A stretch of 64,000 nucleotides of DNA, taken from assembly GCA_013202495.1 (NCBI GenBank), contig JABMQQ010000151.1, positions 23,678-87,677 on the forward strand. The letters run 5' to 3'. Source of the DNA: Fidelibacterota bacterium (GTDB taxonomy: Bacteria; Fidelibacterota; UBA8477; JABMPR01). Every line of letters starts with the position of its first letter. The first letter of the stretch is position 1. The position numbers were made by a program, and so were the translations under genes. Below, in pieces: positions 2,756-20,628 of the stretch. The notes under the pieces are model-generated. The model searched no databases. It had not been told where the DNA came from and saw nothing but the letters and a program-made list of their open reading frames with translations.

Positions 2756-3269
2756 GGCAAGTTAAACAATCGTTTGAGATAGATTTATGATCATGACATT
2801 CCATACAGGTTGACATTAAAATAGGGACGATAGGTCGTACAGGCGGTTCAGTCAATTTTTCGACTTCTCCATGGCAGGTGGTACAGCTGACTTTCCCAGA
2901 TTTAACATGTCTTCTGTGAGAGAAAAACACATGATCAGGTACTTGATAGATTCGTTTCCATGGAATTTCGGTATTACTTAAGACTGCTTCAACGACCACT
3001 GCTTCTTCTGCGCTTCCAGTCTTACTCTTTGAATGACAGGCTTTACATCTTTTAATTGAAGGTAAGGTCGCCTTAAGTTGAGTCTCAATACCTATATGGC
3101 ATTCAACACAATCCATTCCAGCTTCGGTTAAATGAAGTGCGTGACTATAGGATATGGGTTGCTCGATTTCGGGATCCAGACCACACCCACAAATTAAAAA
3201 ACTCCAAAATGCAGCGACAAACCATGCTTGTCTGCACAAATATGTTGGATTCAAATTAGATCTTACCAC
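2748..3269 (-). CDS. Pentaheme c-type cytochrome, probable lipoprotein
   Basis: Five CxxCH motifs (CVECH, CKACH, CTTCH, CMECH, CLTCH); hydrophobic N-terminus with FLICGCG lipobox; overlaps the downstream molybdopterin gene. Confidence 0.85.
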   Translation of the reverse strand: MVRSNLNPTYLCRQAWFVAAFWSFLICGCGLDPEIEQPISYSHALHLTEAGMDCVECHIGIETQLKATLPSIKRCKACHSKSKTGSAEEAVVVEAVLSNTEIPWKRIYQVPDHVFFSHRRHVKSGKVSCTTCHGEVEKLTEPPVRPIVPILMSTCMECHDHKSISNDCLTCHV

Positions 3270-3826
3270 TCTTCATCTTCATCTTCATCTGTTTCACACT
3301 TGAAATCCGGGTTTTTAGTATGTGCGATTTTTTTGTAGAATGAATCGTAGTCAAAGGGTTTATACCGTGGACTTTTCTCATTATGACAGACTAGACAATC
3401 CTCAGGTTTTGGAATAATGAGACCATTGGCAATAGCCTGGTCTTTGTCACACATAACAATTTCTTTGCGATATAATTCTCCAGCACCATGGCAACTTTCA
3501 CATTGGATACCACTCTCTTTTTCAAATTTTTCGCCAAACTCTGCATTGGGATCATTATATCCTGTTACGTGACAGCTTAGACAGTCAGGTGATTCACTTG
3601 GTAGGACTGTCATACCCTGTTCCTTGGCGATGGCTAAAGCATCCTCGCCTAACAATGTCTCATAGGCCTTAGCATGTTTTGAGTCTACCCAATTGGCATG
3701 TTGATTACCCATCTCGGGGGTTTCATGACAGACCTGACATCTTTGAGCACCTGCATATATGTTTGGGGAATCTTGCCCGTTAGCGATACTTAAAATTAAA
3801 AAGATTGCAGAAATTAGCTTTACCAC
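3263..3826 (-). CDS. Tetraheme cytochrome c554-like protein
   Basis: Signal peptide; four CxxCH (CQVCH, CLSCHVTGY, CESCHGAG, CLVCHNEKSP); same layout as the protein at 7807-8376. Confidence 0.8.
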   Translation of the reverse strand: MVKLISAIFLILSIANGQDSPNIYAGAQRCQVCHETPEMGNQHANWVDSKHAKAYETLLGEDALAIAKEQGMTVLPSESPDCLSCHVTGYNDPNAEFGEKFEKESGIQCESCHGAGELYRKEIVMCDKDQAIANGLIIPKPEDCLVCHNEKSPRYKPFDYDSFYKKIAHTKNPDFKCETDEDEDEEW

Positions 3827-3909: not shown

Positions 3910-4887
3910 TTAAAACTTCATGTCAAATGGAGGTGCACCACTATGATTTCCACCCGAGTTGTCAGTAATGGCTACTGTTATTTCAACATCACCTGATCCA
4001 AACACAACATCGTCATCATTGCCTGTGTCAAGAGCACGCATAAATTCGACTGTCCAGGTGCCACCACTGAAGCTTGAATAGGCAGTGACATCAGCACGAC
4101 TTCCATCAGCATTGGCATTGAGCCAGTAACCACGATAGGTCGCAGATTCATCTGCTGTCGCGGCATCAAATGCTGTAAAATAAACATCGGCATCAGTCTC
4201 GCCGGCGGGCAGGATTAAAAAACCATCGGTGAGTGGTGCAGTATACTTGGGCATATCATTGGCTTTATTATCATTATATAAGCCAATCGTTTTTGCATCA
4301 CCGTGTTGTCCACCATCTTCTTTGATGGAACCATCATTATTTTGATATACATTATCAATATACTTATCATCAGCATGATGAGTGGGAGCGCTGCGGGCAG
4401 CTTTCCAGTGCCATTGATCAACTTTACCATTTGTTGTCCACATACCTTCATCATCACCACCAGCATGACACATTCCAGCACAATCGGCACCTTGAGAACC
4501 ATTCAAACCCATATCAAAGAAAAAGAAAAGACGGTCTTCGTTTCCGCTTTTTCCCCAGGCTCCGTCTGCAAAACCCCATTCATTTTTGGCAACACTTTCA
4601 GTACCACTGGGATCATCCCATACAGCTTTTATGTACAAATCGGATGCAGTTTGAACTGCTGTCAGCGTTACATCAAGTACGCCAAAAGCGTTGGCATGAT
4701 CTTCACCCTCGCCCACGGTCACAACATAGTCCGTGGCCTCAGCCCAGGCTGCGTCTCCACCGGATCCATCAAGGGTGGGAGCGGTTGTAACGCTGGTAAC
4801 CATGAATTCGGCTTCAGTTGGAGTATCCTCCTCGCATCCTATAAATAGGAACATTAAAAACATTAGTGCAATAGTAACAATTTTCAT
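3910..4887 (-). CDS. Ethylbenzene-dehydrogenase-like heme-binding-domain lipoprotein with a CxxxCH motif
   Basis: Lipobox FLFIGCEED; beta-rich sequence resembling EB_dh-type heme-binding proteins; GADCAGMCHAGG motif. Confidence 0.65.
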   Translation of the reverse strand: MKIVTIALMFLMFLFIGCEEDTPTEAEFMVTSVTTAPTLDGSGGDAAWAEATDYVVTVGEGEDHANAFGVLDVTLTAVQTASDLYIKAVWDDPSGTESVAKNEWGFADGAWGKSGNEDRLFFFFDMGLNGSQGADCAGMCHAGGDDEGMWTTNGKVDQWHWKAARSAPTHHADDKYIDNVYQNNDGSIKEDGGQHGDAKTIGLYNDNKANDMPKYTAPLTDGFLILPAGETDADVYFTAFDAATADESATYRGYWLNANADGSRADVTAYSSFSGGTWTVEFMRALDTGNDDDVVFGSGDVEITVAITDNSGGNHSGAPPFDMKF

Positions 4888-5416: not shown

Positions 5417-5931
5417 CGAATATCAACTCACGTAGTTTTTAATGTAATTGTATATTTACAAATTCTGTTATTCTGTATCAGCCAGTGCACTATATTAGAT
5501 TTAAAATGTGCTCTTGACAAGGGTTAATAAGGTAACGCATGGTAATCTATTTCTCTGTTTTTTATCTACTTATGGCACTTATGTTGAGTAAATATCTGAA
5601 AAACAAGATGGAAATAAATGTGACCTTTTTTACCATTATTTATTTAAAATATTTATTCTGCAGCTAGGCCATGTTATTCCAGTGATCCAGCGATAAAATG
5701 GTCCTAATGATTCATTAGGACCTTTGATTTTGAATCTTTGACCACAAAATATTGGATGATGACTATAGAAAATCATCAGCGGTTTGTTGATTTTATCTTT
5801 TTGAAGATATTCGGTGGTAACAAACCAAGTTGTAATCCGTTGGAGTGGATGTATATTTCTTCCGTCCGATCCTTCAAGACAGAAATAATATTTGTAACAA
5901 TCCAGATAGGAGATTGACTTTGCGTGTACAT

Positions 5932-6717
5932 ATGCTATTCCATTTAATGTTAATTTTTCTAATGAGTTTATCATCCACCATTGCACAATTGAAAACCACC
6001 TATCCAGATAAATCCAATCCCCATACTGCTGGACTCAATCAAGAATGGGACTGTAGTGAATGTCATTCTACGGATGCCATAGATGCATTAATTCATCCCA
6101 TGTTTAACTTGAACCCTGAGAGTCCTCAAATGTCAATCCCAGAGGATTTCCCGATTTCAAATAATTCTGAGCTAACCTGTTTTACCTGCCACGAAAGCAG
6201 TAAGAAACAAAACAGATCAAATCGCACCTTCCTGAGAGGAGGGCCATACCGTAGAGAATTGGACTTTTGCTATAATTGTCACTCAAAAGAAAATTATGTC
6301 AAAATCAATCCTCACCAGCAACTTAGAGAAGACGGTAGCGTAAATAGTACAGTTTGTCTCCATTGTCATGCTCGCCAACCTACAGCGACAGATCACCCCT
6401 TTATTGCATCAGAAATGCATGCTGACATGAAAGCAACCTGCAATAAATGTCATGCCCTTCACACCCATGAGCAAAACCATTATGGAAAAAACATTACGAC
6501 ATCAAAAAAGGCGACCTTAAAGCAATATGAGATGACTCAGAAGCGCTACGATATAAAGCTACCTTTATCGCAAGCCAATGAAATCCAGTGTCACACCTGT
6601 CATTATATCCATGGCTCGTTAGGGATTGATGCTGTTGTATATGAGGGAAGCGAGGAGAATCAATATTTCTTGAGACTTCCCAAAGAGAATCTGTGCTATG
6701 CCTGCCATAATTTATAG
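5932..6717 (+). CDS. Heptaheme c-type cytochrome (doubled CxxCH type)
   Basis: Seven CxxCH (CSECH, CFTCH, CYNCH, CLHCH, CNKCH, CHTCH, CYACH); signal peptide MLFHLMLIFLMSLSSTIAQ supports start at 5932 rather than 5845. Confidence 0.85.
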   Translation: MLFHLMLIFLMSLSSTIAQLKTTYPDKSNPHTAGLNQEWDCSECHSTDAIDALIHPMFNLNPESPQMSIPEDFPISNNSELTCFTCHESSKKQNRSNRTFLRGGPYRRELDFCYNCHSKENYVKINPHQQLREDGSVNSTVCLHCHARQPTATDHPFIASEMHADMKATCNKCHALHTHEQNHYGKNITTSKKATLKQYEMTQKRYDIKLPLSQANEIQCHTCHYIHGSLGIDAVVYEGSEENQYFLRLPKENLCYACHNL

Positions 6718-6782: not shown

Positions 6783-7805
6783 CTAGTCCAATCGAGTTCC
6801 AGGTAAATCCGTAGGGAATTTCATCTCATCTTCATGGCATTCAACGCAATCCGGCGGTTTGCTAAAATCATCATCAAGGTGACAATCAAAACAATCAAGC
6901 TCCTCATGACCAAGTTCCAAAACTAGTCCTGTGGCAGCATGGTCAAATGACCCCAATTCAAAATTATGATGACAACCTGTACAGGTTTTATCTAATTTTT
7001 TTACAGGTGTGTTGGGATCGTGACAGTTCGTACAATCCCTAGATGAATGAAATGATTTCAATGGGAAGGTAGTCATTTCATGGGTGAAACCTGGAGTCGT
7101 TTTGTTCTGATGACACTTTTCACAACCTGGCTCCTTGAGGGTGTCATGGCATTGACTGCAAGGGAAGTGATGGGTCGATAATTCGCTTGAAATAGTAGTC
7201 TCAATTTGTTGGGATCCATGACAGGTTTTGCAATCCTCATCCCGATGACAAGATTCGCATTTGAATCGAAACATCTCGACATGTTGTTTATGGCGGAAGG
7301 TAACTCGAGTCCTTTCTTGCTCAGGGGTTTGAAAATTTACTACTTCAGGATAACTGTATGTTTTCTGAGGACTATTCGATGGTTCGGCCACTCCTTCTGA
7401 GGACTGAGATTGTTGTAAGTGGCAAGTTCCACATACATTGGAAGCATTCCATCCTCTATGGCAGCTAAGGCATTTCCGGTGAAATGCTGCATTCAGGGAT
7501 GGCAGTCCGCTTGCAAGATCTTTTGGATCATTGGTATGACAATCTGCACAGGGGTCATAGATTTCATCATCTGCATAATGATGACAGGTGTTGCAACCAT
7601 CTCCCATGCGAGACATATGAGCATGTTTACGATGGGGAAAAGTGACAGGTTCAAATATTTTATTATCATTCCTGATCGAAATTGATTCAGGAAGTTCCAG
7701 GAATTTCTCTTGTGATATACCCTGCGAAACGGGACAAAGAATAAACATGCCAAGACTTATTAGACATGCTGATACGGATTTCCTGATCAACTGAAATATT
7801 TCCAT
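6783..7805 (-). CDS. Dodecaheme c-type cytochrome
   Basis: Twelve CxxCH counted; start at 7805 (MEIFQLIRKSVSACLISLGMFILC signal peptide) avoids the long overlap with the upstream gene that the full ORF implies. Confidence 0.85.
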   Translation of the reverse strand: MEIFQLIRKSVSACLISLGMFILCPVSQGISQEKFLELPESISIRNDNKIFEPVTFPHRKHAHMSRMGDGCNTCHHYADDEIYDPCADCHTNDPKDLASGLPSLNAAFHRKCLSCHRGWNASNVCGTCHLQQSQSSEGVAEPSNSPQKTYSYPEVVNFQTPEQERTRVTFRHKQHVEMFRFKCESCHRDEDCKTCHGSQQIETTISSELSTHHFPCSQCHDTLKEPGCEKCHQNKTTPGFTHEMTTFPLKSFHSSRDCTNCHDPNTPVKKLDKTCTGCHHNFELGSFDHAATGLVLELGHEELDCFDCHLDDDFSKPPDCVECHEDEMKFPTDLPGTRLD

Positions 7806-7806
7806 T

Positions 7807-8376
7807 TTATTGCTGCGGATAGGGATGGGCAATCTTCTTTGCGCGCTCTTCAAAATTAAATGACTTGAACGTGGGTGACTTTTCGTTGTGGCAGCCGCGG
7901 CATGTTTTTTCATCCGGGTAGGTCAGCCCAAGGCTTGCTCCATCAGTAGTTCCATCAGTGATGGCCTGCATAACTTTTTTTCCTTTGTATAGACTACCTG
8001 GACCATGGCAGGCTTCACAGCTCACAGATTTCAAGGCGTCGTTCTTGCTGACCAGTTTTTTATTCGTTTCATCTATAGTAAGTTGATATCCCGAAGCAGA
8101 TCCCCAGCCAGTAACATGACATTGCAAACACTCCCCGGCCTGATCAGGCGTAGTTGAGAGACCAAGTTTCTCACCAATTTTTTTAGCCGCGTCTGTTAAC
8201 AGAATATCAAATGTATTGGCATGAGCAGTGGCTTCCCAGTTGGAGTACTGAGCGCCTTTCACTTCCTTATTGTGACACATTTTACATTTTTTACTGCCTA
8301 TGTATTCTGGCTTGGCGTCCTGGGCAAAGATCAAGCCTCCAGATAGGAGGAGTATTACAGTCGTTAATAGTTTCAT
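7807..8376 (-). CDS. Tetraheme cytochrome c554-like protein (paralog of 3263-3826)
   Basis: CKMCHN, CLQCHVTGW, CEACHGPG, CRGCHNEKSP; signal peptide MKLLTTVILLLSGGLIFAQ from 8376. Confidence 0.85.
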   Translation of the reverse strand: MKLLTTVILLLSGGLIFAQDAKPEYIGSKKCKMCHNKEVKGAQYSNWEATAHANTFDILLTDAAKKIGEKLGLSTTPDQAGECLQCHVTGWGSASGYQLTIDETNKKLVSKNDALKSVSCEACHGPGSLYKGKKVMQAITDGTTDGASLGLTYPDEKTCRGCHNEKSPTFKSFNFEERAKKIAHPYPQQ

Positions 8377-8406
8377 TTGATGTCCTTTCACGGCGGTCCT
8401 ATACAT

Positions 8407-9672
8407 TTAATTAGTGATATTCTTATTATTATCGATTTGTTTAATCTTCAAATACAGAGCAAAGGCGAGCAGAACAAAAACCAGAGTAGAAATACCAAAC
8501 CCCAATCTTCGTTGATTGAATTCACTAATTTCAAGCCCTGCCAGTGTAATAGCTGTCTGGGAAAGTTGTTTTCCTTCACCAGCCTTTTCAGTTATTTGAA
8601 TTGGATCGAAGGTATGCACCATCGTTCGCAGTTGAATTAAATTCTGTTTGGCATCTTTCAACTTGTATTGGATGTCTACATCATTCATGCCTTTGATCTG
8701 AATATCATGTAGATGGAGCTGAGCCTCCTGATAAAGACTATCCGCTTGAGTGATTTGCATATACATGGTTTCAGCGGCCACATATCCCTCATCATCCTCT
8801 GAGTGGCACTCCAGGCACAGAGATGATTCATGGACATTCAAAAACTCATCGCCAGGTTTATATATGGCATGATTCCCATGGCATTGCTCGCAAGTATGGT
8901 ATTCGGCTGATTCAGAGGATTTACCCATAATGGATGTCTTGAAATATTCCATGTTGTTTAAGTGGCAGGATCCACAAATGTGGTTTACCGACTCTACACC
9001 TGGAGGGGCTGCGCCATGGTTTCCATGGCAATCGTTACACGCTGGTGATCCTGTATCACCTTTTTCGATGAGCGCTTTACCATGTACACTGCCGGCATAG
9101 TCATCCAGCTGGCTGGTCCCATGCCCGGTTGAGGCCATCAACTCTGCATCACCGTGACATTGATTGCATGTTTGGGGGATATTGAAAGCATGAACGCTAG
9201 AGCGTGTGTCTTTCGCTGGCAGTATTCCGTGAGAGGTGTGACAACTGCTGCACTGGGCTACTTTTTTGTCACCCCCCTTTAATTTCATGCCATGGGTGCT
9301 GGTGTAATATTGATCGACCTGATCAGTTTGTATGCGCGGCTGGAAGACACGCATATATTCGATTTTGCTATGACACTTGCCACAAAAAGCAGGGATATCC
9401 GCTAATTCTGGTATCCCGATATAGCCATTTTCGACAGACATGGACTCATCCATATCTTCCTCAAGCGGATCACCTCCATGGCAACCAGCACAAGAAATCT
9501 CGGCATGTTGATGTACATCATCCTCATGGAAATCCATGGGCATGATATCATTCTCGATATGACATTCCAGACAGGTATTAACTTCTGACTCAGCTTTTAT
9601 TTCAGCTGTGCTAAATAGTACAAAGCCAGCGAGAAGTGTTAAACTTAGATAATATGTTATTGATCGCTTCAT
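8407..9672 (-). CDS. Nonaheme c-type cytochrome with C-terminal transmembrane anchor
   Basis: Nine CxxCH; signal peptide MKRSITYYLSLTLLAGFVLF; C-terminal hydrophobic helix LGFGISTLVFVLLAFALYLKIKQ. Confidence 0.85.
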   Translation of the reverse strand: MKRSITYYLSLTLLAGFVLFSTAEIKAESEVNTCLECHIENDIMPMDFHEDDVHQHAEISCAGCHGGDPLEEDMDESMSVENGYIGIPELADIPAFCGKCHSKIEYMRVFQPRIQTDQVDQYYTSTHGMKLKGGDKKVAQCSSCHTSHGILPAKDTRSSVHAFNIPQTCNQCHGDAELMASTGHGTSQLDDYAGSVHGKALIEKGDTGSPACNDCHGNHGAAPPGVESVNHICGSCHLNNMEYFKTSIMGKSSESAEYHTCEQCHGNHAIYKPGDEFLNVHESSLCLECHSEDDEGYVAAETMYMQITQADSLYQEAQLHLHDIQIKGMNDVDIQYKLKDAKQNLIQLRTMVHTFDPIQITEKAGEGKQLSQTAITLAGLEISEFNQRRLGFGISTLVFVLLAFALYLKIKQIDNNKNITN

Positions 9673-9683
9673 ATCAGACTCGC

Positions 9684-10763
9684 TTATATATATCCGATGA
9701 TCGTTAGGACCACCATGTAGGTAATAGTAAATACTCCCAGAATTGTAATCCATTTCGAGTCCACAATCTGTTTCCCTCGAAACCGGGCAAATGGAACGGC
9801 CATCCAGAGCACTGCTGCAACACCGAATAACAGAATTCCAAAAGTTTCACCTTCAATAAACCAGACATGCGGGGGAATAATTTTTAAGGTCTCAAACATA
9901 AACATAAAGTACCATTCCGGTTTAATTCCCATGGGTGCTGACGCCAGAGCATCTGCTTTCAAACCCAAGTCCCATGGATAAAACACGGCCAGATACAGAA
10001 CAATGATATTTATAATTAACCACAGTAGAGCATCACGGAGGACGAAATCTGGAAAGAAAGACATATAGCGTTTTTTCTCAGCAGGCTGCTCATGGAAATG
10101 TCGAGGTTCGCTGATCCCCTGCCTCTGTACCAACAGCAAATGAAAGCTCAATATTAAAAAGGTGATGGCTGGTAAGATCGCAACATGAAGTCCAAAAAAT
10201 CTCGATAATGTGGCTCCGGTGACATCTTCCCCACCCCGGATAATGATTTTAAGTTGCTCACCAATAAATGGGACTGCACCCACAATATCGGTCCCCACTT
10301 TTGTTGCAAAAAAGGCTAATTCATTCCATGGGAGTAGATATCCACTAAAACCAAAGAACATTGATAGAAGTAATAAAAGAAATCCAGAGACCCAGGTTAG
10401 TTCACGCGGTTTTGAAAAGGCTCGGGTGAAAACCACACTAAACATATGAATAAAAGCGAACAAAACCATCAGATTGGCTGACCAGGCATGGACGTTTCGA
10501 AATAACCATCCGAATTGGACTTCGGTCAAAATGAATTGTATGCTCTCGTAGGCACTGTCTTCACCAGGACGATAATACATCAGTAGCAATATTCCAGTAA
10601 AGAGCTGCACCAAGAATAGAAAAAGAGTCACCCCGCCCATGTAGTACCACATGGTGTGTGAGTGGATCGGCACTTTTTTATGATCCATCATCTCCACCAG
10701 GGGTTTCAAGTCAAGACGATCATCCAGCCAGCTGAACGTTTTTTGTTTTGAACTCTGCTTCAT
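9684..10763 (-). CDS. Cytochrome b (b6-like, full length) of a quinol:cytochrome c oxidoreductase
   Basis: Heme-ligand pairs HAWSANLMVLFAFIH (Hx13H) and HVAILPAITFLILSFH (Hx14H); Qo-site KPEWYF motif; polytopic. Confidence 0.92.
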   Translation of the reverse strand: MKQSSKQKTFSWLDDRLDLKPLVEMMDHKKVPIHSHTMWYYMGGVTLFLFLVQLFTGILLLMYYRPGEDSAYESIQFILTEVQFGWLFRNVHAWSANLMVLFAFIHMFSVVFTRAFSKPRELTWVSGFLLLLLSMFFGFSGYLLPWNELAFFATKVGTDIVGAVPFIGEQLKIIIRGGEDVTGATLSRFFGLHVAILPAITFLILSFHLLLVQRQGISEPRHFHEQPAEKKRYMSFFPDFVLRDALLWLIINIIVLYLAVFYPWDLGLKADALASAPMGIKPEWYFMFMFETLKIIPPHVWFIEGETFGILLFGVAAVLWMAVPFARFRGKQIVDSKWITILGVFTITYMVVLTIIGYI

Positions 10764-11200
10764 GCCAGGTCCTTTTCCTCAGTAATTATCACCTGATCAT
10801 CCACAATGGATACCGAGTAGACGGTGAGTGGTTTGGGAGGTGGCCCAGAAACGTTTTTACCGTTTAGATCAAATACACCATTGTGGCATGCACAAACTAT
10901 TTGTTTTCTTGCTTGATTGTACTGGACTATACAGTCCAAGTGAGTACAAGTGGCTGCCAGAGCGCTGAAGGTATCCTGATCATTCCGAATCAGGATCACC
11001 GGGACGCGTCCGAATCGCACTATCTTGGAACTATTTATGGGGAATTCATCAACAGTTCCAACTTTTAGTGAGCTTACATGTGGTTCAGAAATTTTTGGGG
11101 GAATCATAAACTGAAATACTGGATAAAAAATGGAAGCCAATCCGCCAATTCCGCCAGCACCTAACATCGTGTTAATGAACTCTCTACGACCGTACTTCAT
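10760..11200 (-). CDS. Rieske 2Fe-2S protein
   Basis: TAT-like GRREFINTMLGAGGIGG; CTHLDC...CACHNGVFD cluster-binding motifs; 4-nt overlap with cytochrome b start. Confidence 0.93.
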   Translation of the reverse strand: MKYGRREFINTMLGAGGIGGLASIFYPVFQFMIPPKISEPHVSSLKVGTVDEFPINSSKIVRFGRVPVILIRNDQDTFSALAATCTHLDCIVQYNQARKQIVCACHNGVFDLNGKNVSGPPPKPLTVYSVSIVDDQVIITEEKDLA

Positions 11201-11228
11201 AAAGTATTTCCTGTCCTTAATATAAAAT

Positions 11229-12452
11229 TCATTGACTTGCACTATGGGCGGCAACTGCAGCATCTTCCGCTCGCCATGGCTTTAGGATTTTTATTAGCAT
11301 CCAGAGAATGATAAATGGCATGATCAGAAGCGCGATGGAAACCAATAATCCTTCCAGACCGAAGAAAGTCATCTTGTAGGTTGTCAGACCCATGAAACTT
11401 TTTGAGAAGAGCTGACCGCCAATCACAACATTCCATCGAGTTGAGAATATTCCTACTTGAACCAAAATGGCCGAAATGAAGTAGAGTAGTTTACGCAGAT
11501 CAGCCGGGACTTTAAACGTTTTGACACCGGCAATGGTGAAAAGTGGTATAATCATCCCAATTAGCACCTGCATAATTACCAGGCTCGAAAAAAGTCTGTT
11601 TTGCACCAGGGACGCCAGGATCTTGATGGATTCTTCTGATTCATAAACACGATGTATAAAATCCAGAATCTCCAGAGAGAAATCGACGATCATGATATAG
11701 AATAAATAGCTTGCCAGCTTATCCAGACATATCATATCTACGATTTTGTTTCGAAGGGGAGTAATAATCATATAGAGCAATATGACAAGGGCCACCCCTG
11801 ACACGATGGCAGAGAATAAAAATACGATTGGAATCAATACACTGGACCACCAGGGATTGGCTTTGATTGACCCAAATAAAAATCCAACATAACCATGCAG
11901 TAAAAAAGCAGATGGAATACCTATGATGGTTATGACGCGTACCGCTTTATGATCAAAAGCCACTGCTTTATCGGAAATATCTTTGGAGAACAGTGACAGC
12001 GTCTTATAGAACCATTTTTTTATTCCTCTGCTCTCATTGGCCATCAGGATCAGGTCTTTACGAAAGTCAAACCAGAGCTCAAGCAGGAGCACAGCCATGA
12101 GGTACCAGGCATAGACGAAACCAAACATGGCCATGGCAGAATTCACATTGGGAGTAAGAAAAATCTCGAATGATTTTTCCGGGTGTCCCAAATGGGCAAG
12201 TAAGGGTAAAGGTGCGATGATTATAAATGCCAATGCAGTAAGTAGAGATAAGCGGTAGGTTGGCTGGAGTTCTTTTACGTTAAATACCTTGACCAGTGAA
12301 GCCAGGATGAAGGCACCTGCGACAAGACCCGTCAGATATGGATAAATGACGACTAAAAGACCCCAATGTAGCTCTATTTCATTCGGAAAAATGTAGCCAG
12401 TAACTTCATCGAGGAGTGGTGTTAAATGTTGGACTATTTCTTCCATGATCAT
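11229..12452 (-). CDS. NrfD/PsrC-like integral membrane quinone-interacting subunit
   Basis: Polytopic 407-aa protein with NrfD-type helices (GLLVVIYPYLTGLVAGAFILASL, LAHLGHPEKSFEIF); 4-nt overlap with upstream FeS gene. Confidence 0.88.
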   Translation of the reverse strand: MIMEEIVQHLTPLLDEVTGYIFPNEIELHWGLLVVIYPYLTGLVAGAFILASLVKVFNVKELQPTYRLSLLTALAFIIIAPLPLLAHLGHPEKSFEIFLTPNVNSAMAMFGFVYAWYLMAVLLLELWFDFRKDLILMANESRGIKKWFYKTLSLFSKDISDKAVAFDHKAVRVITIIGIPSAFLLHGYVGFLFGSIKANPWWSSVLIPIVFLFSAIVSGVALVILLYMIITPLRNKIVDMICLDKLASYLFYIMIVDFSLEILDFIHRVYESEESIKILASLVQNRLFSSLVIMQVLIGMIIPLFTIAGVKTFKVPADLRKLLYFISAILVQVGIFSTRWNVVIGGQLFSKSFMGLTTYKMTFFGLEGLLVSIALLIMPFIILWMLIKILKPWRAEDAAVAAHSASQ

Positions 12453-13231
12453 TTAACCTCCATATCTAGATGTGCATAAAATACCTTGGGCTCGGTATTA
12501 AGCGCTGGTTTAAGAACGCCAATATGGTTCATTCGTTTAAATCGATGCAAAGGACTAGCTTTCTGATCCAACTCCCCAAATATTCTAGCTTCAGTAGGAC
12601 ATGCTTCTACACAGGCAGGTTCTTCCCCTCTAACAATTCTGTGATAACAAAACGTACATTTCTCGGCAGTTTTTGTCACGGGGTGTAGGAATCTTGCACC
12701 GTAAGGGCAGGCCTGGATGCAATATCTGCAACCAAGACAATATTCCGCATCAACCAATACCACACCATCGGCGGACTGAAAGGTCGCTCCCACTGGGCAG
12801 ACTTGAACGCAGGGTGGTTTTTCACAGTGATTGCATAATTTTGGCACAAAGAAGCTACGTAGGACATCCTCACTTTCAGGATGCTTTTCAAAACCATCGA
12901 TGGCACCGTTAGGACAATCAATGATAGTTTCTCCATTCTCTTTCACTTGATAGCGTTCCACCCAGGTACGAAAGAAGAATGGTTCTTTGGGAACATCATT
13001 TTCAATTTTACAGGCATTAGAACATCTTCCGCAGCCGATACATTTGTCAATATCCACTCCCATGCCCCATGTATGCTCGTGTGGGTTATAGTTGATTGAT
13101 TCATCTGCCCAGTCCATAGGTTTTACAGATTCCTGCTCTGCTGTGAGAAACTTGGGAAATAATACACCGGCAGCCAAGCCCGCCATCGTTTTTAAAACGT
13201 CGCGTCTTTTTGAAGTGATAAGATTCTTCAT
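12449..13231 (-). CDS. 4Fe-4S ferredoxin-type subunit (DmsB/NrfC/PsrB-like), TAT-exported
   Basis: KRRDVLKTMAGLAAGVLFP TAT-like leader; four Cys clusters including CIGCGRCSNACKIEN, CNHCEKPPCVQVCPVGA and CLGCRYCIQACPYGARF. Confidence 0.9.
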   Translation of the reverse strand: MKNLITSKRRDVLKTMAGLAAGVLFPKFLTAEQESVKPMDWADESINYNPHEHTWGMGVDIDKCIGCGRCSNACKIENDVPKEPFFFRTWVERYQVKENGETIIDCPNGAIDGFEKHPESEDVLRSFFVPKLCNHCEKPPCVQVCPVGATFQSADGVVLVDAEYCLGCRYCIQACPYGARFLHPVTKTAEKCTFCYHRIVRGEEPACVEACPTEARIFGELDQKASPLHRFKRMNHIGVLKPALNTEPKVFYAHLDMEVK

Positions 13232-13980
13232 CTCGCCTCCGGTAGGTGTGGGTAATGACATTGCCAGCAATCATAACGTGTCTCGTGGGTTGCAAGATTT
13301 ATCAGGGGAGCATCAGTGTCGTTACTTGCATTCTTTGTGTGACATTGCCCACAGAATTCGCGATTTTGAGGTTTATCTGGTCGGTACTGACGAGGTGAAA
13401 TTTTGTGTAGTTCCGGTGTGGTATGACAAAATTCGCATTCAACATCCATATGATGCGATACTGCTTTGCTGCGCGATATTTCGCCGTGGCATGCTGAACA
13501 TTCACTGGGAACTTCAGGAGGTGCTGGATCATGTGGTTCGTGGCAGGTCACACAGGATTTCAATGAGTTATGAGATTGACTGACTATTTGAGGAAATCCA
13601 GTGGGTCGTGATGAGAGGTATTCGTGACATACCGGGCATAATGTTCGTTCTCTGGGAAAACTGGGTTCGTTTTCATCTGAGTCTTCAATGTGTCCGGCCA
13701 GCGGTCCGTGGCAAACCTCACAACTCAGTTTTTTATGATATCCTGCAGCAAGCATTTCCGTCATATCATCGTGGCATTCAACACAGCTTGCTCTACCAGC
13801 GTATTTGAATTCAATTGCTACCGCATCATTTAATGCACCTGTTCTAAAATGACCAAGTTCACCAAAATCATCTGGTATTAGTAATGGTCTAATGATGAGA
13901 AATGCAGATATGACGAGAATCACCACTACAACTAGCAATTTGATCTGCTCCGGTGCTTTACTTAGCCAACTATTCATCAT
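13228..13980 (-). CDS. Octaheme c-type cytochrome with N-terminal membrane anchor
   Basis: Eight CxxCH (CVECH, CEVCH, CPVCH, CVTCH, CSACH, CEFCH, CGQCH, CWQCH); N-terminal helix KLLVVVVILVISAFLII; 4-nt overlap with the FeS gene. Confidence 0.85.
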   Translation of the reverse strand: MMNSWLSKAPEQIKLLVVVVILVISAFLIIRPLLIPDDFGELGHFRTGALNDAVAIEFKYAGRASCVECHDDMTEMLAAGYHKKLSCEVCHGPLAGHIEDSDENEPSFPRERTLCPVCHEYLSSRPTGFPQIVSQSHNSLKSCVTCHEPHDPAPPEVPSECSACHGEISRSKAVSHHMDVECEFCHTTPELHKISPRQYRPDKPQNREFCGQCHTKNASNDTDAPLINLATHETRYDCWQCHYPHLPEAR

Positions 13981-14028
13981 AAATCCCCTAATATTTCTGA
14001 AGATTGATAGCATTTTAAGCCTTCTCTG

Positions 14029-15669
14029 CTACTGCTCACCCTTGCGGGGACTTCCCTTTCGGATTCGAGTGTAAACAGCAGAAACTGTGATGAGAACCAC
14101 TCCAAGCGTAAAAAATGTGAGGATTCGTTGTCCAGGCTCCATACCCATGGTTGCGAGCAAAATGACATATGCCATGGTCGCGATGAGGGTCAGGTGCCCC
14201 ATCCAACGATATCGTTTACTATTTAAAGCCACACTGAGTGCATAGTATAGAACGGAGACACCAAGCAAAGGAAAAGCCACCCACTCGTTTGGGATTGCCT
14301 TCCACAGTGCATACGGTAGAGTGACAAAGGTGATTGCCAGATAAAAGTTTATCAAAACATTGAATGAGGATCCCAGTCGAATCTCAAACGCTCTGAGTAA
14401 TCTGGCACTAAAAAGTGCAACAAAACCAAAGCTTACACTAATGATACCCGCAAACCCGCTAGCTGCAGAATAGGCCAGGAACAAGACGATATATAGCAGG
14501 AAGTTAGATATGGTAATGAATTGTGATTTAAACCACAGAGCATTGGCCAAAACTAGTAAGCTCTGCCAAATCAGAATAACATATATATCTGGGGAGGGCA
14601 CAGTTTGTAGAAGTCCAATGCTGATGGTACCATGTGCTAGTAGTGTAAAGAGTACCATTGAGAAGTTGATTTTTAGACGTTTCCAAAAGACCAGTGCAAG
14701 CCCAAAGAAAACAATGAAGAAGAGAATTTTAGGCATAAGTGTGGGCGGAACGTCATGCAAAACAAAGGATAAATTGAAGAGTATGAACGCCAAGACTCCA
14801 TTTCCCATGGCATTTGCAACCACATACTCTTTTGCGATGGTTTTGGTATCAGAAACAATGAGAATAAGGGAAAAGATAAGTGCATAAATCACTAGATAAA
14901 CTTGATCCCAGGCAGGATGAGCCAGAGCACCATACTCACCAGTCATAATTGGGTTTCCCAACATCCAAATGAGATGGGCGGTATACACAGCAATGGTGCC
15001 ATAGATGAAAGTAATTGGATCCTTTAATTCACGGGAATAATAAACTACCCCCAGGGCGACAAGAGCATTTAAGCTCAGGGTCCAGGCAGGTAAATTGATG
15101 ACAATACCAGCCAGCAGCATGAGTGTTAGTCCAATTGAATACAGATAGGGAGATCTCTTGTTGTATCCAAAGGCTACGAGACCAAAACAAAGAAGTGTTA
15201 GGAAAGTATTTTCCAGATACCCTGATTCCAACAAGCTCGGCTCGCCAAAATGGAATAAACGGAGAACTGAGATAAAGCTGACGACAAAGGCGGCGCCCCA
15301 TAGATTCAATGAGATAAATTTGAAGGTGGCTTTGGTGTAGACCGCAGCACCAACCATCAGCGCACATATTCCTGCACCCATTAGGCTAGGCACAACAGGA
15401 TGCAAATTATTCCATTGCAAGCTTAGCATGAAAACAAAAGCCATGACTAAGATGGCAATACCTACATAGGCGAACCAATATTCTCCAATGTGGATTTCAA
15501 ACGCATTGGGTTTTCCATCGCCGCGTTCTTGAATACCACCAACGCTTCGGTCTTCCGTAGTTTTAATATACGGTTTCATAGCTGCTTCCAGGGTGGATAC
15601 TCTTTGATCCAGGTCTTTTAAATAGTCAATGACCTGAGAGGATGAAGAATCGGTGGAATTTTTTGCCAT
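14029..15669 (-). CDS. Polytopic membrane protein, DUF2339-like
   Basis: About 12 or more hydrophobic helices after a short coiled-coil-like N-terminus (VIDYLKDLDQRVSTLEAAM). Confidence 0.6.
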   Translation of the reverse strand: MAKNSTDSSSSQVIDYLKDLDQRVSTLEAAMKPYIKTTEDRSVGGIQERGDGKPNAFEIHIGEYWFAYVGIAILVMAFVFMLSLQWNNLHPVVPSLMGAGICALMVGAAVYTKATFKFISLNLWGAAFVVSFISVLRLFHFGEPSLLESGYLENTFLTLLCFGLVAFGYNKRSPYLYSIGLTLMLLAGIVINLPAWTLSLNALVALGVVYYSRELKDPITFIYGTIAVYTAHLIWMLGNPIMTGEYGALAHPAWDQVYLVIYALIFSLILIVSDTKTIAKEYVVANAMGNGVLAFILFNLSFVLHDVPPTLMPKILFFIVFFGLALVFWKRLKINFSMVLFTLLAHGTISIGLLQTVPSPDIYVILIWQSLLVLANALWFKSQFITISNFLLYIVLFLAYSAASGFAGIISVSFGFVALFSARLLRAFEIRLGSSFNVLINFYLAITFVTLPYALWKAIPNEWVAFPLLGVSVLYYALSVALNSKRYRWMGHLTLIATMAYVILLATMGMEPGQRILTFFTLGVVLITVSAVYTRIRKGSPRKGEQ

Positions 15670-15804
15670 GATGTACCTCAGTTTAATTGAAATAAAATTG
15701 TGGAGTTTCCCCTTATATCTCAATTTGCATGCCAGTCATGGACCTGGGTATCTCATAGTACTGTATATATTGTGTTTATATCACTTTTAAGGATCACAGA
15801 TATT

Positions 15805-15929: not shown

Positions 15930-17324
15930 TCAGAGTAGTCGCCACGCCTCAGGATCGATCCCATGTTTTTGTAGCAAACGATAGGTGTTTCGCCGAGTCA
16001 TATCTGCTTCTTCAGCAATACGAGTCACATTTCCTTTATGTTTGCGAAGCAGAAATTTCAGATACCTTTGCTCTACCTTATCGATTTCACGAGTACGGGC
16101 TTGCTTAAATGACAGAGAGTCAAAATTTTCCTGGATGGGTTCCAGGGAGTGGAATTGTTCTGGGAGATGGGCACTCTGAATGACAGTATCATCGCTCAAG
16201 GCAACCAATCGCTCAATCACATTTTCTAATTCGCGGACATTTCCCGGCCAATTATAGGTTTCCAGAAGAGTGAGTGTCTCGGCTGAAAATTTGAGTTTCT
16301 TTTTGCCTGTTGTCACCATGGACTTTTTGGCGAAGTGATTTACCAAGAGTCGGATGTCACCCTTCCGTTCACGCAATGGGGGTATATGAATATGAATCAC
16401 ATTGAGTCGGTAGTACAAATCTGCACGTAATCGATCTTCACCAAGGATATTCTCAGGAGAACAATTGGTAGCTGAGATAATACGTACATTTATTGGGATC
16501 TGGAGATGCCCTCCCAATCTTCTCAATTCGCGTTCTTGAAGCACACGTAAAAATTTTGTTTGCAGGGAATGAGCCATCTCACACACTTCATCAAGAAAGA
16601 AGGTTCCAGTATTGGCATACTCGAATAAGCCAATTTTTGTTTGGTCGGCACCTGTGAAAGCACCTTTTTCATATCCAAAAAGCTCAGATTCAAAAAGATT
16701 TTCGGGAAGTGCTCCGCAATTCATTGGCACAAAGGGTTTTGCCTGCCGTTTGCTTCGCGTATGTATACTTCTTGCAATCAGTTCTTTCCCTGTCCCACTT
16801 TCACCAGTAATAAGGATATTGACATCCGTTGGAGCAACGGTTTCGATCAATTTGAATATTTTTAGCATCACATCACTTTTACTGATGATGTTTTCAAATT
16901 TGTATTTGTCTTTCAGTTGCTGTAAAAGGGATTGTCGTTCTTCTACCAGGTTTGAAAATTGCAATGCCCTGTCAATCACCACTTTGAGATGATCCGCCTC
17001 GAAGGGTTTTTCAATAAATTCATAGGCTCCAGCCTTTATACAAGCTACGGCCCGGTCGATAGTCCCATATGCTGAGATGATGATCACAGGCAGATCCTTT
17101 GCATACATGCGGATTCTTTGTAACATCTCGAGACCATCAAGGTCTGGCATTTGCAAATCACACAGCACGAGTTCAAAATTTTGGCTTTCGATGAGTTCCA
17201 ATGCATAGTGTACATCTTTTGTTGTCATGGGCTCGAAATCCAGACGGCGCAGTAGATTAGCCGTTGCTTCTAAGAAATCTTGTTCATCATCAATAATGAG
17301 TATGCGTGGACCTATTGGTTTCAT
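15930..17324 (-). CDS. Sigma54-dependent NtrC-family response regulator
   Basis: REC domain (LVLCDLQMPDLDG), AAA+ GESGTGKELIARSIH and GAFTGA loop motif, Fis-type HTH (GNVTRIAEEADMTRRNTYRLLQKHGI). Confidence 0.95.
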   Translation of the reverse strand: MKPIGPRILIIDDEQDFLEATANLLRRLDFEPMTTKDVHYALELIESQNFELVLCDLQMPDLDGLEMLQRIRMYAKDLPVIIISAYGTIDRAVACIKAGAYEFIEKPFEADHLKVVIDRALQFSNLVEERQSLLQQLKDKYKFENIISKSDVMLKIFKLIETVAPTDVNILITGESGTGKELIARSIHTRSKRQAKPFVPMNCGALPENLFESELFGYEKGAFTGADQTKIGLFEYANTGTFFLDEVCEMAHSLQTKFLRVLQERELRRLGGHLQIPINVRIISATNCSPENILGEDRLRADLYYRLNVIHIHIPPLRERKGDIRLLVNHFAKKSMVTTGKKKLKFSAETLTLLETYNWPGNVRELENVIERLVALSDDTVIQSAHLPEQFHSLEPIQENFDSLSFKQARTREIDKVEQRYLKFLLRKHKGNVTRIAEEADMTRRNTYRLLQKHGIDPEAWRLL

Positions 17325-19069
17325 GATTTATCCGTTGGTAGATAGATTAAAAAGGTTGCTCCCTCTCCAGGTGTACTCTGTACATCGAGACGACCACTGT
17401 GTCTTTCTACAATAGATTTGGAAATTGATAATCCCAAACCAGTACCTTGTGTCCCAGGTTTATTACTCACAAAGGGTTTAAATATATTCGAAATGTCTGA
17501 TTGTTTGATGCCACTACCATTATCACTAATGGAAAGTACATTTAAGTTTTGTTGACCCAGGGATGTTTCCTCCGTGGTGCTTTTGAGATGCAAAGTGATT
17601 GTGCCTTTTGGTTCTACAAAATCAATGGCGTTATTAAGTAAATTTATAATGACCTGCTCTAGCCTCGGGCGATCAAAAATGAAAGGAGGCCAGTAATCTG
17701 GTAATTTTTTCTTCACCACAACTTGTTTTGCATTTAGACGCGGACCAACCAGGAATAAACATTCTGATATGAGGTCCAAGATGTCATTTTCCTCTGGCCT
17801 AAAAGGCATGACTCTGGAATATCCCAGTAATCTTTTGGTGTAATCTTTTATTCGATGGACCTGTTTCTTAATGATACGCATTTCACCTCGGGAATCTTCT
17901 CCAAGATTTTCATTTAGAATCATCCCATCGGCTACGGCTGAAATTATCCCCGTCGGCGTGTTTATTTCATGTGCAACTGAATCTATCAACTCTCCCAATG
18001 AGGCCAGTTTGGTTGCCTGGTCAAGTTTTTCCTGGATACGCTGCACTTCGCTAATTCGCTTTTTCGCCTGATCTGCCAGCACTCTCTTTATATTCAAATA
18101 GTAGAGAGAACCACCTGTCATGATCAAAAGGAGCAGAAATACTCCTGAAAGGATAAATATGGCAACGGAGTTTCTCAACACATCACGTACGACTGAGGGA
18201 GAGTAAGTTGAAATGGCCAGAACCCATTTTAAACCCTCATATTGAATAGGCTCATACGCCATAATTTTTTCAGGTTCACCTTCAATAAAATAATTTGCTC
18301 TTCCTGAGCCTCCTGCAATCATTTGTTCCTGTATTTTGAAGGAACTATGGCATTCGACACAATCTTCCTGAATGTCCCTGATATTGTGCAGAAGCATTTC
18401 TTCATGGCTTGGGTGATATATGAGTCGGCCCCCATCATCCATCACCCAGGCAAAATCATCTTTACCCAGTTTAAGGGGTTTGACAAATTTTTCCATTAAC
18501 CAATCAAAACTAATTAGTAACCCTATACTCCTGACCCTGGACCTCAATGTGTAATCTTTATCTATAGTCTTAGCTGGTGTGAAAATGACAAGAAAATGGT
18601 AGGGGGATTCATCAGAACCCATATTCTGTGGATATACGGGAGAGAAAATAATTTGGGATTCAATAGCCCTAATCCGACTCGGACTGATCACGTCGACAGA
18701 CAAGAGACGAAGTTCTTCTGCTACCCGATCAGAGAGTGAGTTACCCCAGGTTTTGTCGATTTTAAAACTATCATCCAGGGTGAACCAGGAGCTTATACCT
18801 TCAGTACTTAGCTGATTAGAGTGTTGTAAAACATTCACATTTTCCAGGCCAAGCTGTGAAAGCAGCTGAAGGTCATCTTCCAGATGTTCGAAATAGTTGG
18901 TCATGCTGGCCGTGGCCGTTTTGGCCATTTCTGACTGAAGCTGCTGATGATAAGAAGTAGCCTCCGACAAGGCAGTCTGGTAGAATTTTATAACCAGAAA
19001 AATAAAACTGGAAACCAACAGAATTGAAAATACGATGATAGAACTTGAGTTCAGTTTAAGCAGCCGCAT
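17321..19069 (-). CDS. Sensor histidine kinase with periplasmic Cache-like domain containing a c-type heme motif
   Basis: Two TM helices flanking the sensor; DCVECHSSF in the extracytoplasmic region; H-box SVAHEINTPTGI; ATPase boxes NLLNNAIDF, DNGSGI, GTGLGLSIS; overlaps the response regulator start. Confidence 0.92.
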   Translation of the reverse strand: MRLLKLNSSSIIVFSILLVSSFIFLVIKFYQTALSEATSYHQQLQSEMAKTATASMTNYFEHLEDDLQLLSQLGLENVNVLQHSNQLSTEGISSWFTLDDSFKIDKTWGNSLSDRVAEELRLLSVDVISPSRIRAIESQIIFSPVYPQNMGSDESPYHFLVIFTPAKTIDKDYTLRSRVRSIGLLISFDWLMEKFVKPLKLGKDDFAWVMDDGGRLIYHPSHEEMLLHNIRDIQEDCVECHSSFKIQEQMIAGGSGRANYFIEGEPEKIMAYEPIQYEGLKWVLAISTYSPSVVRDVLRNSVAIFILSGVFLLLLIMTGGSLYYLNIKRVLADQAKKRISEVQRIQEKLDQATKLASLGELIDSVAHEINTPTGIISAVADGMILNENLGEDSRGEMRIIKKQVHRIKDYTKRLLGYSRVMPFRPEENDILDLISECLFLVGPRLNAKQVVVKKKLPDYWPPFIFDRPRLEQVIINLLNNAIDFVEPKGTITLHLKSTTEETSLGQQNLNVLSISDNGSGIKQSDISNIFKPFVSNKPGTQGTGLGLSISKSIVERHSGRLDVQSTPGEGATFLIYLPTDKS

Positions 19070-19320
19070 AACCTCTCGATGCAATTAATGTGCTATTCTC
19101 CTGCTGGATACAGGATCTTGAGTCTGGATGATCATTTTGTCTATTTCATCGAAAGTGTGATCGATGAATTTGCCTGTACCCTGTTGAAGTCTTATTGGTA
19201 TGAAACTAAGATAGGTCTGTGACACTTGCTATGGAGAAGTGCTCTCTATTCTTAAGTCTGATCTGAGTGAGGACACCTTTTGGATATTCCTGTCCAGGCG
19301 GCTAAGGCTCCCTGCCATAC

Positions 19321-19560: not shown

Positions 19561-20628
19561 TTAATCAAGGCCAAGATTGAATTCAGCACCAGTCAACAGA
19601 GTGTTGAAGTAACCAGGATTGTGTACACCATGGCTATGATCTTCATAAACCACCATATAGTTCCAGAATGCTTTAAACTCATCTTCTGTTACAACACCGA
19701 CATGTGGATGATATTCTCCATCTTCCTCAGCAAGTGCACCAGCTGTGACCAATGCATCGGCAATAGCGGTCAGACGTACGCTAACAGCATCCTGTTTTTC
19801 TGTCAGGTATGCAGCGATGTCTGTTACTGTTGAGTGACAGGCGACAGTACAGTTTTCCAGATTGGGAACAAAGGAGTGTCCACCCTCAGTTGCTGTTGCG
19901 TCACCCATATGACAGCTAACACAACCAACAGATGTGTGTGTACCCTCTGAACTAGCTCCATATCCACTCATACCTTTGAGTGTATTGGTCTGTGGTCCAT
20001 GGTGTGGTCCAGCATGGCTGCTATTGATATAAACAGATCCGTCTGGAACAACAAAATCAAGAGAATCATTGCCATTTACATCATCAGTCCATACAGAGTC
20101 AATTGCTTCATAATATGCATAGCCTCTTCTGGATTGGTGACAATTGGCGCATAAGTTGGAAGCACTGCCAAAATCTACAACTGTACCATCTTCAATCATG
20201 GTAACTGCAGCACTTGTTTGCAGTGGTGCACTAATACCTTCTTCAAGGGATCCGTGATTTCCATGACAGGTTCCACATGACCAAGCGGATGGGTAAGCAA
20301 TATTTTCGCCACCATATCCAGCGAGATAATCCATGAATCCTTCACTTGAATGACAACGGGCACAACTTCCACGACCACCAGCATAACCGACATAGTTACC
20401 AGCTGAATGACCAGATAAGGCAAATAGTCCATTTACAGAATCCATGTTGTCCTGTGTGTGACAGGTTAGGCAAGAGACATTACCATCGACTCCATCAACA
20501 CCATCGGTTCCATTAGCACCAGCGGCACCAGCGGCACCATCTTCGCCAGCAGGACCTTCACAACTAACTGTAAACATCACCATCAGGGCTAAAACCAGGA
20601 TAGCGAACAGGTTGATTTTTTTACTCAT
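19561..20628 (-). CDS. Multiheme c-type cytochrome lipoprotein with N-terminal collagen-like repeats
   Basis: Lipobox VSCEG; GPAGEDGAAGAAGANGTDGVDGVDG; five CxxCH plus NCTVACH (CxxxCH); C-terminal HGVHNPGYFNTLL. Confidence 0.85.
   Translation of the reverse strand: MSKKINLFAILVLALMVMFTVSCEGPAGEDGAAGAAGANGTDGVDGVDGNVSCLTCHTQDNMDSVNGLFALSGHSAGNYVGYAGGRGSCARCHSSEGFMDYLAGYGGENIAYPSAWSCGTCHGNHGSLEEGISAPLQTSAAVTMIEDGTVVDFGSASNLCANCHQSRRGYAYYEAIDSVWTDDVNGNDSLDFVVPDGSVYINSSHAGPHHGPQTNTLKGMSGYGASSEGTHTSVGCVSCHMGDATATEGGHSFVPNLENCTVACHSTVTDIAAYLTEKQDAVSVRLTAIADALVTAGALAEEDGEYHPHVGVVTEDEFKAFWNYMVVYEDHSHGVHNPGYFNTLLTGAEFNLGLD

Follow-up and report, generated by a model that had tools for sequence, protein, structure and literature searches.

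Complexes that join a Rieske protein and a cytochrome b to multiheme c-type cytochromes are known from Caldithrix (Cabys_2557-2558; PMC5317091), from anammox bacteria (Kuste4569-4574 and Kustd1480-1485; PMC12954380) and from Geobacter (ExtNOPQ/GSU2930-2937 and CbcVWX; PMC2825233, PMC5877670 and PMC10989804). A second kind of module is represented by CbcSTU, which consists of c, iron-sulfur and NrfD-type subunits (CbcU is called b-type in PMC10989804), and by the iron-sulfur/NrfD complexes with multiheme cytochromes of Melioribacter, for which a role as quinol:acceptor reductases was proposed earlier (cited in PMC9386147). Here we describe a nine-gene operon that appears to encode both kinds of module. 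It lies in a stretch of 64,000 nucleotides (the window) on contig JABMQQ010000151.1, from a metagenome-assembled genome (MAG) of Candidatus Neomarinimicrobiota (Marinimicrobia). For anaerobic respiration it is an open question why a cell should maintain two menaquinol:cytochrome c oxidoreductases of different mechanism; several phyla share a conserved and apparently co-regulated operon that ties together the two predicted here.

Architecture of the operon and its two modules

The nine open reading frames (ORFs) at 6783-15669 are all open and all on the minus strand. They encode, in order, a DUF2339-type membrane protein, an octaheme cytochrome (c8), a periplasmic protein with four [4Fe-4S] sites (FeS), NrfD, a Rieske protein, a b6-type cytochrome b (cytb), and a nonaheme (c9), a tetraheme (c4) and a dodecaheme (c12) cytochrome. 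The first-pass annotation had proposed this operon with its gene order and motifs, and the ORFs, the Pfam matches (Fer4_11/Fer4_7, NrfD, Rieske, Cytochrome_B/_B_C, cytochrome c7/c3/C554) and the CxxCH counts bear it out; c8, c9, c4 and c12 carry 8, 9, 4 and 12 motifs, respectively, adding up to the 33 hemes that it had given. Spacings, derived from the likely true starts, are 15 nt (DUF2339 to c8), -4 nt (c8 to FeS), -4 nt (FeS to NrfD), 28 nt (NrfD to Rieske), -4 nt (Rieske to cytb), 11 nt (cytb to c9), 30 nt (c9 to c4) and 1 nt (c4 to c12).

With moderate confidence, we read the operon as encoding two separable menaquinol:multiheme-cytochrome oxidoreductases, which are made together and share one periplasmic heme pool. 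In the first, menaquinol would be oxidised at the site of cytochrome b on the positive side (P-side) of the membrane; one electron would pass through a low-potential Rieske cluster to the membrane-anchored c9, and the other would return over the two b hemes to the quinone pool, in an energy-conserving Q-cycle. In the second, of the Nrf/CbcSTU type, menaquinol would deliver electrons from the P-side site of NrfD through four [4Fe-4S] clusters to c8. The cytochromes c4 and c12 would pass electrons onward, a histidine kinase with a heme motif and a sigma-54 activator would turn the set on, and the DUF2339 protein would be an accessory membrane protein. Two enzymes are the simplest reading because each module looks complete and is also found without its partner beside it. 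What the analysis shows is which genes are present and in what order, how far they are conserved, that the modules are separable, that the second depends on the first at the level of genomes, and that residues for the cofactors and the quinone sites are kept; the direction of electron flow, the sharing of the pool and the physical separateness of the complexes are what we infer. Both modules are probably kept for different acceptor potentials, or as a proton-pumping and a fast route; Geobacter has distinct inner-membrane cytochromes for acceptors of different potential (PMC5877670).

The window Rieske protein has both cluster motifs, CTHxxC and CxCH (CTHLDC and CACHNG). In nearly the whole family the second motif reads CACHNGx[YF], with a glycine at the position of the serine in CPCHGS, a serine that raises the Rieske potential (PMC12954380). 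By this signature the window protein would be of the low-potential type, and the exchange of serine for glycine across the family thus fits menaquinol/menaquinone as the substrate. High-potential, canonical CPCHGS Rieske proteins exist elsewhere in the same phylum (loci L020-L025; loci and genomes are designated L and G throughout). The best PDB match of the window cytb is cytochrome b6, and its histidine spacing is of the b6 type; the pairs H92/H106 (Hx13H) and H193/H208 (Hx14H) and the PEWY motif (282-285) are invariant in 16 homologues. The window cytb contains no cysteine, so that a covalent heme c_n, as found in cytochrome b6f, is not expected.

Rieske, cytb and c9 remain together in the close relatives found through cytb, with nine hemes in c9 or, in one Bacteroidota/Ignavibacteria branch, 11; a cytochrome of this size would stand in these relatives in the place of a mono- or diheme cytochrome c1/f subunit. 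The module is, by its sequence features, a multiheme variant of the Rieske/cytochrome b complexes and not bc1 or b6f proper. The cytochrome c9 most likely substitutes for c1/f, because cytb and c9 are naturally fused into a single polypeptide of ~850 residues in L010, L011 and L110 (L110:9992-12547) and because none of the nine CxxCH of c9 varies among 31 sequences. The predicted structure of the L110 fusion has a mean predicted local distance difference test score (pLDDT) of 75 and a predicted template modelling score of 0.54, with the c9 domain mostly at 85-98. The 50 best hits of a fold search with this model were all to cytochrome b, so that the search is uninformative on the fold or the docking of c9, which has no match among PDB sequences.

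In the c8-FeS-NrfD trio, all eight CxxCH of c8 are invariant in 16 homologues, and further invariant histidines are numerous enough to provide the distal ligands; its predicted structure reaches a pLDDT of only 45. The FeS protein has 17 cysteines, and its match to PsrB spans the cluster region with a four-cluster pattern. NrfD is strongly conserved, with 64-83% identity between phyla, and gave no match against PDB sequences. When NrfD is aligned with its family, H87, S105 and R339 fall on the quinone-site Asp/His, the Ser and the gate Arg, and the tyrosine in the CLGCRYC motif of FeS aligns with Y113 of QrcC. The roles of these residues have been described (PMC13059093, PMC8076601), and their presence fits an active P-side quinone site.

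The DUF2339 label of the first-pass annotation is right for the family, in that the homologues in L055 (88.6 bits) and L063 (87.3 bits) clear the PF10101 cut-off of 33.6, while the window copy stays below the threshold. The gene adjoins Rieske or the trio in many loci, and its product is a putative accessory subunit or assembly partner.

Linkage and separation of the modules across genomes

The gene-neighbourhood search that the first-pass annotation had suggested was carried out. The order c8-FeS-NrfD-Rieske-cytb-c9, with short spacing, recurs in ~25 loci that represent at least four phylum-level lineages (Fidelibacterota, Ignavibacteriota/Bacteroidota, Calditrichota and Glassbacteria, plus the lineage of L098). 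In every linked locus the trio is inserted on the same side, directly upstream of Rieske; where a locus holds both DUF2339 and Rieske, the trio in most cases lies between them. Its internal order is kept in all trio loci that do not run into a contig end. Distances of NrfD, FeS and c8 follow those of cytb among the linked loci (Mantel r 0.86-0.89). An artefact or a chance adjacency of the operon genes is ruled out by the conservation of gene order across phyla.

The two modules are also found apart. Among 110 loci identified through cytb, 23 have the NrfD of the trio beside Rieske and 54 lack the trio, with at least 2.6 kb of upstream sequence present; in the remaining 33, where the contig or the fetched stretch ends, the state is undecided. 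On the cytb tree the trio is absent from 54 of the 76 Rieske-cytb-c9 rows, and the label for a trio beside cytb changes 11 times, at least nine of these changes being forced by well-supported branches; hence each module is maintained where the other is not adjacent. Conversely, in searches that began with NrfD, the trio stands alone with its own order kept in L150, L151, L153, L154 and L159, is found beside 17-heme and 11-heme cytochromes in Marinimicrobia L144-L149, and is unlinked to the bc genes, or on another contig, in seven genomes (G253, G266, G267, G270, G365, G384 and G560). Since lone trio copies are nested among linked ones in the NrfD tree, where the linked state is paraphyletic, the linkage is likely to be ancestral and to have been followed by several separations; the position of the root rests on long branches.

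Of the 23 genomes that carry the trio, 22 also have the bc complex (Rieske-cytb-c9), against a background of ~26%. The association is seen within Marinimicrobia (245 genomes), where the bc family occurs in 9/10 trio genomes and in 27/235 others (Fisher p 1e-7), and within the Melioribacter class (294 genomes), where it occurs in 13/13 trio genomes, ten of them with the trio directly linked to the bc genes, and in 106/281 others (p 5e-6). As a control, a sister trio consisting of a 13-15-heme cytochrome, FeS and NrfD (L161-L166) was accompanied by the bc family in 3/10 genomes, which is the background rate and differs from the 13/13 of the trio proper (p 0.0005). The specific co-occurrence suggests that the two modules are used together. 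The sister trio itself scores ~350-376 bits to the window family and is unlinked to Rieske/cytb; in L165 it is followed by a DUF2339 gene.

This control bears on the notion that the operon is a mere stacking without functional coupling, in which one generic quinol oxidase cassette landed beside another and was then inherited. We consider this highly improbable: the repeated gain or loss of the trio beside cytb would suit it, but the identical insertion side in every linked locus, the specific co-occurrence even where the modules are unlinked, and the behaviour of the sister trio do not.

The first-pass annotation had offered either one hybrid complex or two complexes on a shared heme pool. As a single stable complex, or an obligatory supercomplex, the trio would be docked on Rieske-cytb-c9, and the particle would have Qi and two quinone sites on the P-side, along with a continuous 17-heme membrane-anchored wire (c8+c9). 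We regard this as possible but unlikely. It draws on the six-gene order and short spacing shared by at least four phylum-level lineages, on the Mantel correlations and on the near confinement of the trio to genomes with a bc complex, and it has precedents in DsrMKJOP (PMC8076601) and in the anammox Rieske/cytb complexes, which include hexa/octaheme c together with an NAD(P) module (PMC12954380). Against this stand the lack of a trio at 54 of the 76 Rieske-cytb-c9 loci on the tree, the seven genomes in which the trio is unlinked or on another contig, and the different cytochromes beside it in L144-L149; in addition, no fusion of a trio protein with Rieske or cytb was seen among the loci. The annotation had named the separate occurrence of the two pairs in homologous loci as the observation that would speak against a hybrid, and this is largely what emerged; its second option is the better supported, as the modules are separable across loci. 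A more elaborate version, which seems rather unlikely, would make the six-gene set one membrane supercomplex in which Qo, Qi and the P-side site of NrfD add up to three quinone sites, with local quinone exchange and a Q-cycle coupled to an ion-translocating NrfD; if true, it would be a variant of complex III not described before.

Several points weigh against two separate enzymes. The fixed order upstream of Rieske over deep divergences, the short or overlapping spacing and the high co-inheritance are also typical of the subunits of one complex, and the direction of electron flow through NrfD is not readable from sequence. G223 has the trio and no detectable bc complex. Furthermore, the Fisher tests take no account of kinship, and the genomes are MAGs with gaps.

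Regulatory and neighbouring genes

Upstream of the operon lie the genes of a histidine kinase and a sigma-54 activator (Table 1). One CxxCH is also present in the upstream histidine kinase of L032, L033, L034, L046, L055, L069 and L080, and a kinase of this kind is a possible c-heme redox sensor. An orthologue of the activator (502-812 bits) directly precedes the DUF2339 gene in L032, L033, L034, L044, L046 and L069. A TGGYAY-N5-TTG site is located 47-74 nt before the gene in 6/6 loci with a strongly similar upstream activator (at least 500 bits) and, among the remaining scanned loci, in L036 only. By itself the window site, TGGCATGCAAATTGAG, is not significant, being matched by shuffled sequences in 22%; a strict sigma-54 pattern, searched for across the window, and a scan for sigma-70-like promoters both gave results at chance level. 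With its heme-motif kinase, its activator and the conserved -24/-12-like site, the operon is apparently co-regulated.

Table 1. Positions in the window of the operon genes and of the neighbouring features.
Feature	Position	Strand	Basis or remark
Tat molybdoenzyme of the Qrc/Arr/Psr group, downstream operon	332-2755	-	
Pentaheme cytochrome, downstream operon	2748-3269	-	
c554-type tetraheme, downstream operon	3263-3826	-	
EB_dh lipoprotein, downstream operon	3910-4887	-	
Convergent heptaheme cytochrome facing the 3' end of the operon	5845..6717	+	7 CxxCH; position and orientation shared with L031, L032
c12, dodecaheme periplasmic cytochrome	6783..7805	-	12 CxxCH; PF02085/PF14522
c4, c554-type tetraheme periplasmic cytochrome	7807..8376	-	PF13435 61 bits; 4 CxxCH
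c9, nonaheme c-type cytochrome, C-terminal transmembrane (TM) anchor	8407..9672	-	9 CxxCH; TM 390-408
Cytochrome b, b6-type N-terminal half and 3-TM C-terminal part in one chain, 359 aa	9684..10763	-	Pfam, alignment, PDB match
Rieske [2Fe-2S] protein	10760..11200	-	CTHLDC + CACHNGVF; PF00355 50 bits (cut-off 20)
NrfD-type quinone-interacting membrane subunit, 407 aa	11229..12452	-	PF03916 141 bits (cut-off 26)
FeS, periplasmic protein with 4 [4Fe-4S] sites, PsrB/DsrO/TtrB-like	12449..13231	-	Tat-like SKRRDVLK; best PDB chain 2vpw_B
c8, octaheme c-type cytochrome, N-terminal membrane anchor	13228..14013	-	8 CxxCH; TM 28-46
DUF2339-type polytopic membrane protein	14029..15669	-	likely ATG 15669; ~13 TM (TM scan)
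Candidate -24/-12 (sigma-54-like) site TGGCATGCAAATTGAG	15719..15734	-	~50-65 nt before the DUF2339 ATG
Sigma-54 activator response regulator, 464 aa	15930..17324	-	Pfam Response_reg + Sigma54_activat
Histidine kinase, 587 aa, dCache/HisKA/HATPase, one CxxCH in the sensor region	17321..19084	-	Pfam

The functional neighbourhood of the operon exceeds 6783-15669, with the regulators on the upstream side and, on the other, a second NrfD cluster that runs past the window edge. The gene for c12, the last of the operon, is retained in L031 and L032. Past the window, on the same contig (L175, G000:C140:14000-24100), the downstream operon continues with genes for an FeS protein resembling QrcC, a 443-residue NrfD, a possible 412-residue beta-barrel and a 14-heme cytochrome; the cluster is Qrc-like yet falls below the Qrc cut-offs. 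The same gene set is joined straight to Rieske-cytb-c9 in L088 and L093, and a pentaheme-Mo-FeS-NrfD-tetraheme block lies between cytb and c9 in L045 (11095-17634), L049 (6269-12797) and L067 (11177-17745). In L045 and L049 the Rieske-cytb pair is thereby flanked by two NrfD modules. The window locus would thus hold up to three quinone-interacting modules within ~25 kb.

The adjacent cluster, and its joining to or nesting in the Rieske-cytb operon in these five loci, would also suit a trio that runs in reverse. Here the trio would act as a Qrc-like cytochrome c:menaquinone reductase that feeds electrons from the periplasm into the quinone pool and takes protons from the cytoplasm, and Rieske-cytb-c9 would withdraw electrons at a higher potential, the two forming an electrogenic redox loop. 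Qrc is electrogenic (PMC13059093), and the quinone-site residues essential in Qrc, the FeS tyrosine and the NrfD serine, are present. We judge the reversal distinctly unlikely, as the trio is not QrcCD by score (FeS reaches 103 bits against a QrcC cut-off of 400, and NrfD has no QrcD match), the proton-path aspartate of QrcD is not obvious in the alignment, and minimal stand-alone trios (L150, L151 and L153) occur without a dedicated periplasmic dehydrogenase.

In four loci of the Ignavibacteria class (L156, L157, L158 and L160), a NapC/NirT-type hexaheme cytochrome of ~497 residues is encoded directly upstream of c8-FeS-NrfD-Rieske-cytb, preceded in turn by 19-heme and smaller multiheme cytochromes. 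As a third quinol-oxidiser family in the same operon, it suggests a battery of parallel quinol oxidases. The genome of the window has seven NrfD-family genes, some of them beside molybdoenzyme-like partners. Elsewhere in the window, 19561-20628 encodes a penta-CxxCH lipoprotein-like protein with a weak match to cytochrome c552 (NrfA-type), and two nearby ORFs on the plus strand (43253-44242 and 44469-45458), both of 329 residues, are possible tandem paralogues.

Relation to known complexes

It had been stated in the first-pass annotation that Rieske/cytb and NrfD/FeS are normally alternatives. This holds in part only, for DsrMKJOP already has a cytochrome b and an NrfD-type subunit in one operon and complex (PMC8076601). 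DsrMKJOP, like Hmc, resembles the window operon in combining a cytochrome b that has a quinone site with a c-FeS-NrfD module of the DsrJOP type, and with DsrO (cut-off 200) the window FeS reaches 189 bits. Neither DsrM nor DsrK is present in the window operon, and its cytb is bc-type. DsrM is NarI-like and paired with the cytoplasmic DsrK, and DsrJ is a small triheme cytochrome.

The alternative complex III and Qrc also combine multiheme c, FeS and NrfD subunits, and the cluster at 332-3826, with its continuation downstream, belongs to that group. The window operon differs from them in having a true Rieske-cytb pair and no molybdopterin-like subunit: it contains no QrcB, no ActB, no ActE and no second NrfD. 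The nearest analogue may be PcmABCDEFG of Geobacter metallireducens (Gmet_2117-2123), likened here by its published annotation, which in PMC10989804 lists a membrane protein, a 4Fe-4S protein, two cytochrome b parts, a Rieske protein and two tetraheme c; it differs in its hemes, with these two 4-heme cytochromes against the 8-, 9-, 4- and 12-heme cytochromes of the window operon. The G. metallireducens genome paper mentions neither pcmA-E nor NrfD.

CbcSTU and the Nrf-type complexes (NrfBCD, Melioribacter) likewise consist of a multiheme c, a periplasmic 4Fe-4S protein and an NrfD-type subunit, and have been proposed to be quinol:cytochrome oxidoreductases. In CbcSTU, compared by gene content alone, the c subunit is the tetraheme CbcS, whereas the trio has the octaheme, membrane-anchored c8 and is tied to Rieske-cytb. 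An exact match to a characterised Cbc complex was not found, CbcSTU and CbcVWX each covering one half by gene content only; this agrees with the earlier remark that no characterised enzyme of this exact composition is known, and no exact match to one appeared in the literature examined. Nor did the open-licence full texts yield a paper that describes both modules as one conserved operon. With a conserved operon and natural presence/absence variants at hand, the question of why both are kept can be put to a genetic test in cultured Ignavibacteria or Calditrichota.

The Caldithrix, anammox and Geobacter complexes share with the window operon a gene set of Rieske, b-type cytochrome and multiheme c, and quinol oxidation to periplasmic multihemes has been proposed for them. 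As published, their operons have no NrfD/FeS/octaheme trio; they carry instead an NAD(P) oxidoreductase (anammox), a Nap/multiheme cluster (Caldithrix) or a rhodanese and a porin (Ext). The family described here differs from them in its nine-heme c partner, which is sometimes fused to cytb. It would thus add to the Rieske/cytb complexes a well-defined family in which a nonaheme cytochrome, in some members continuous with cytochrome b, replaces c1/f.

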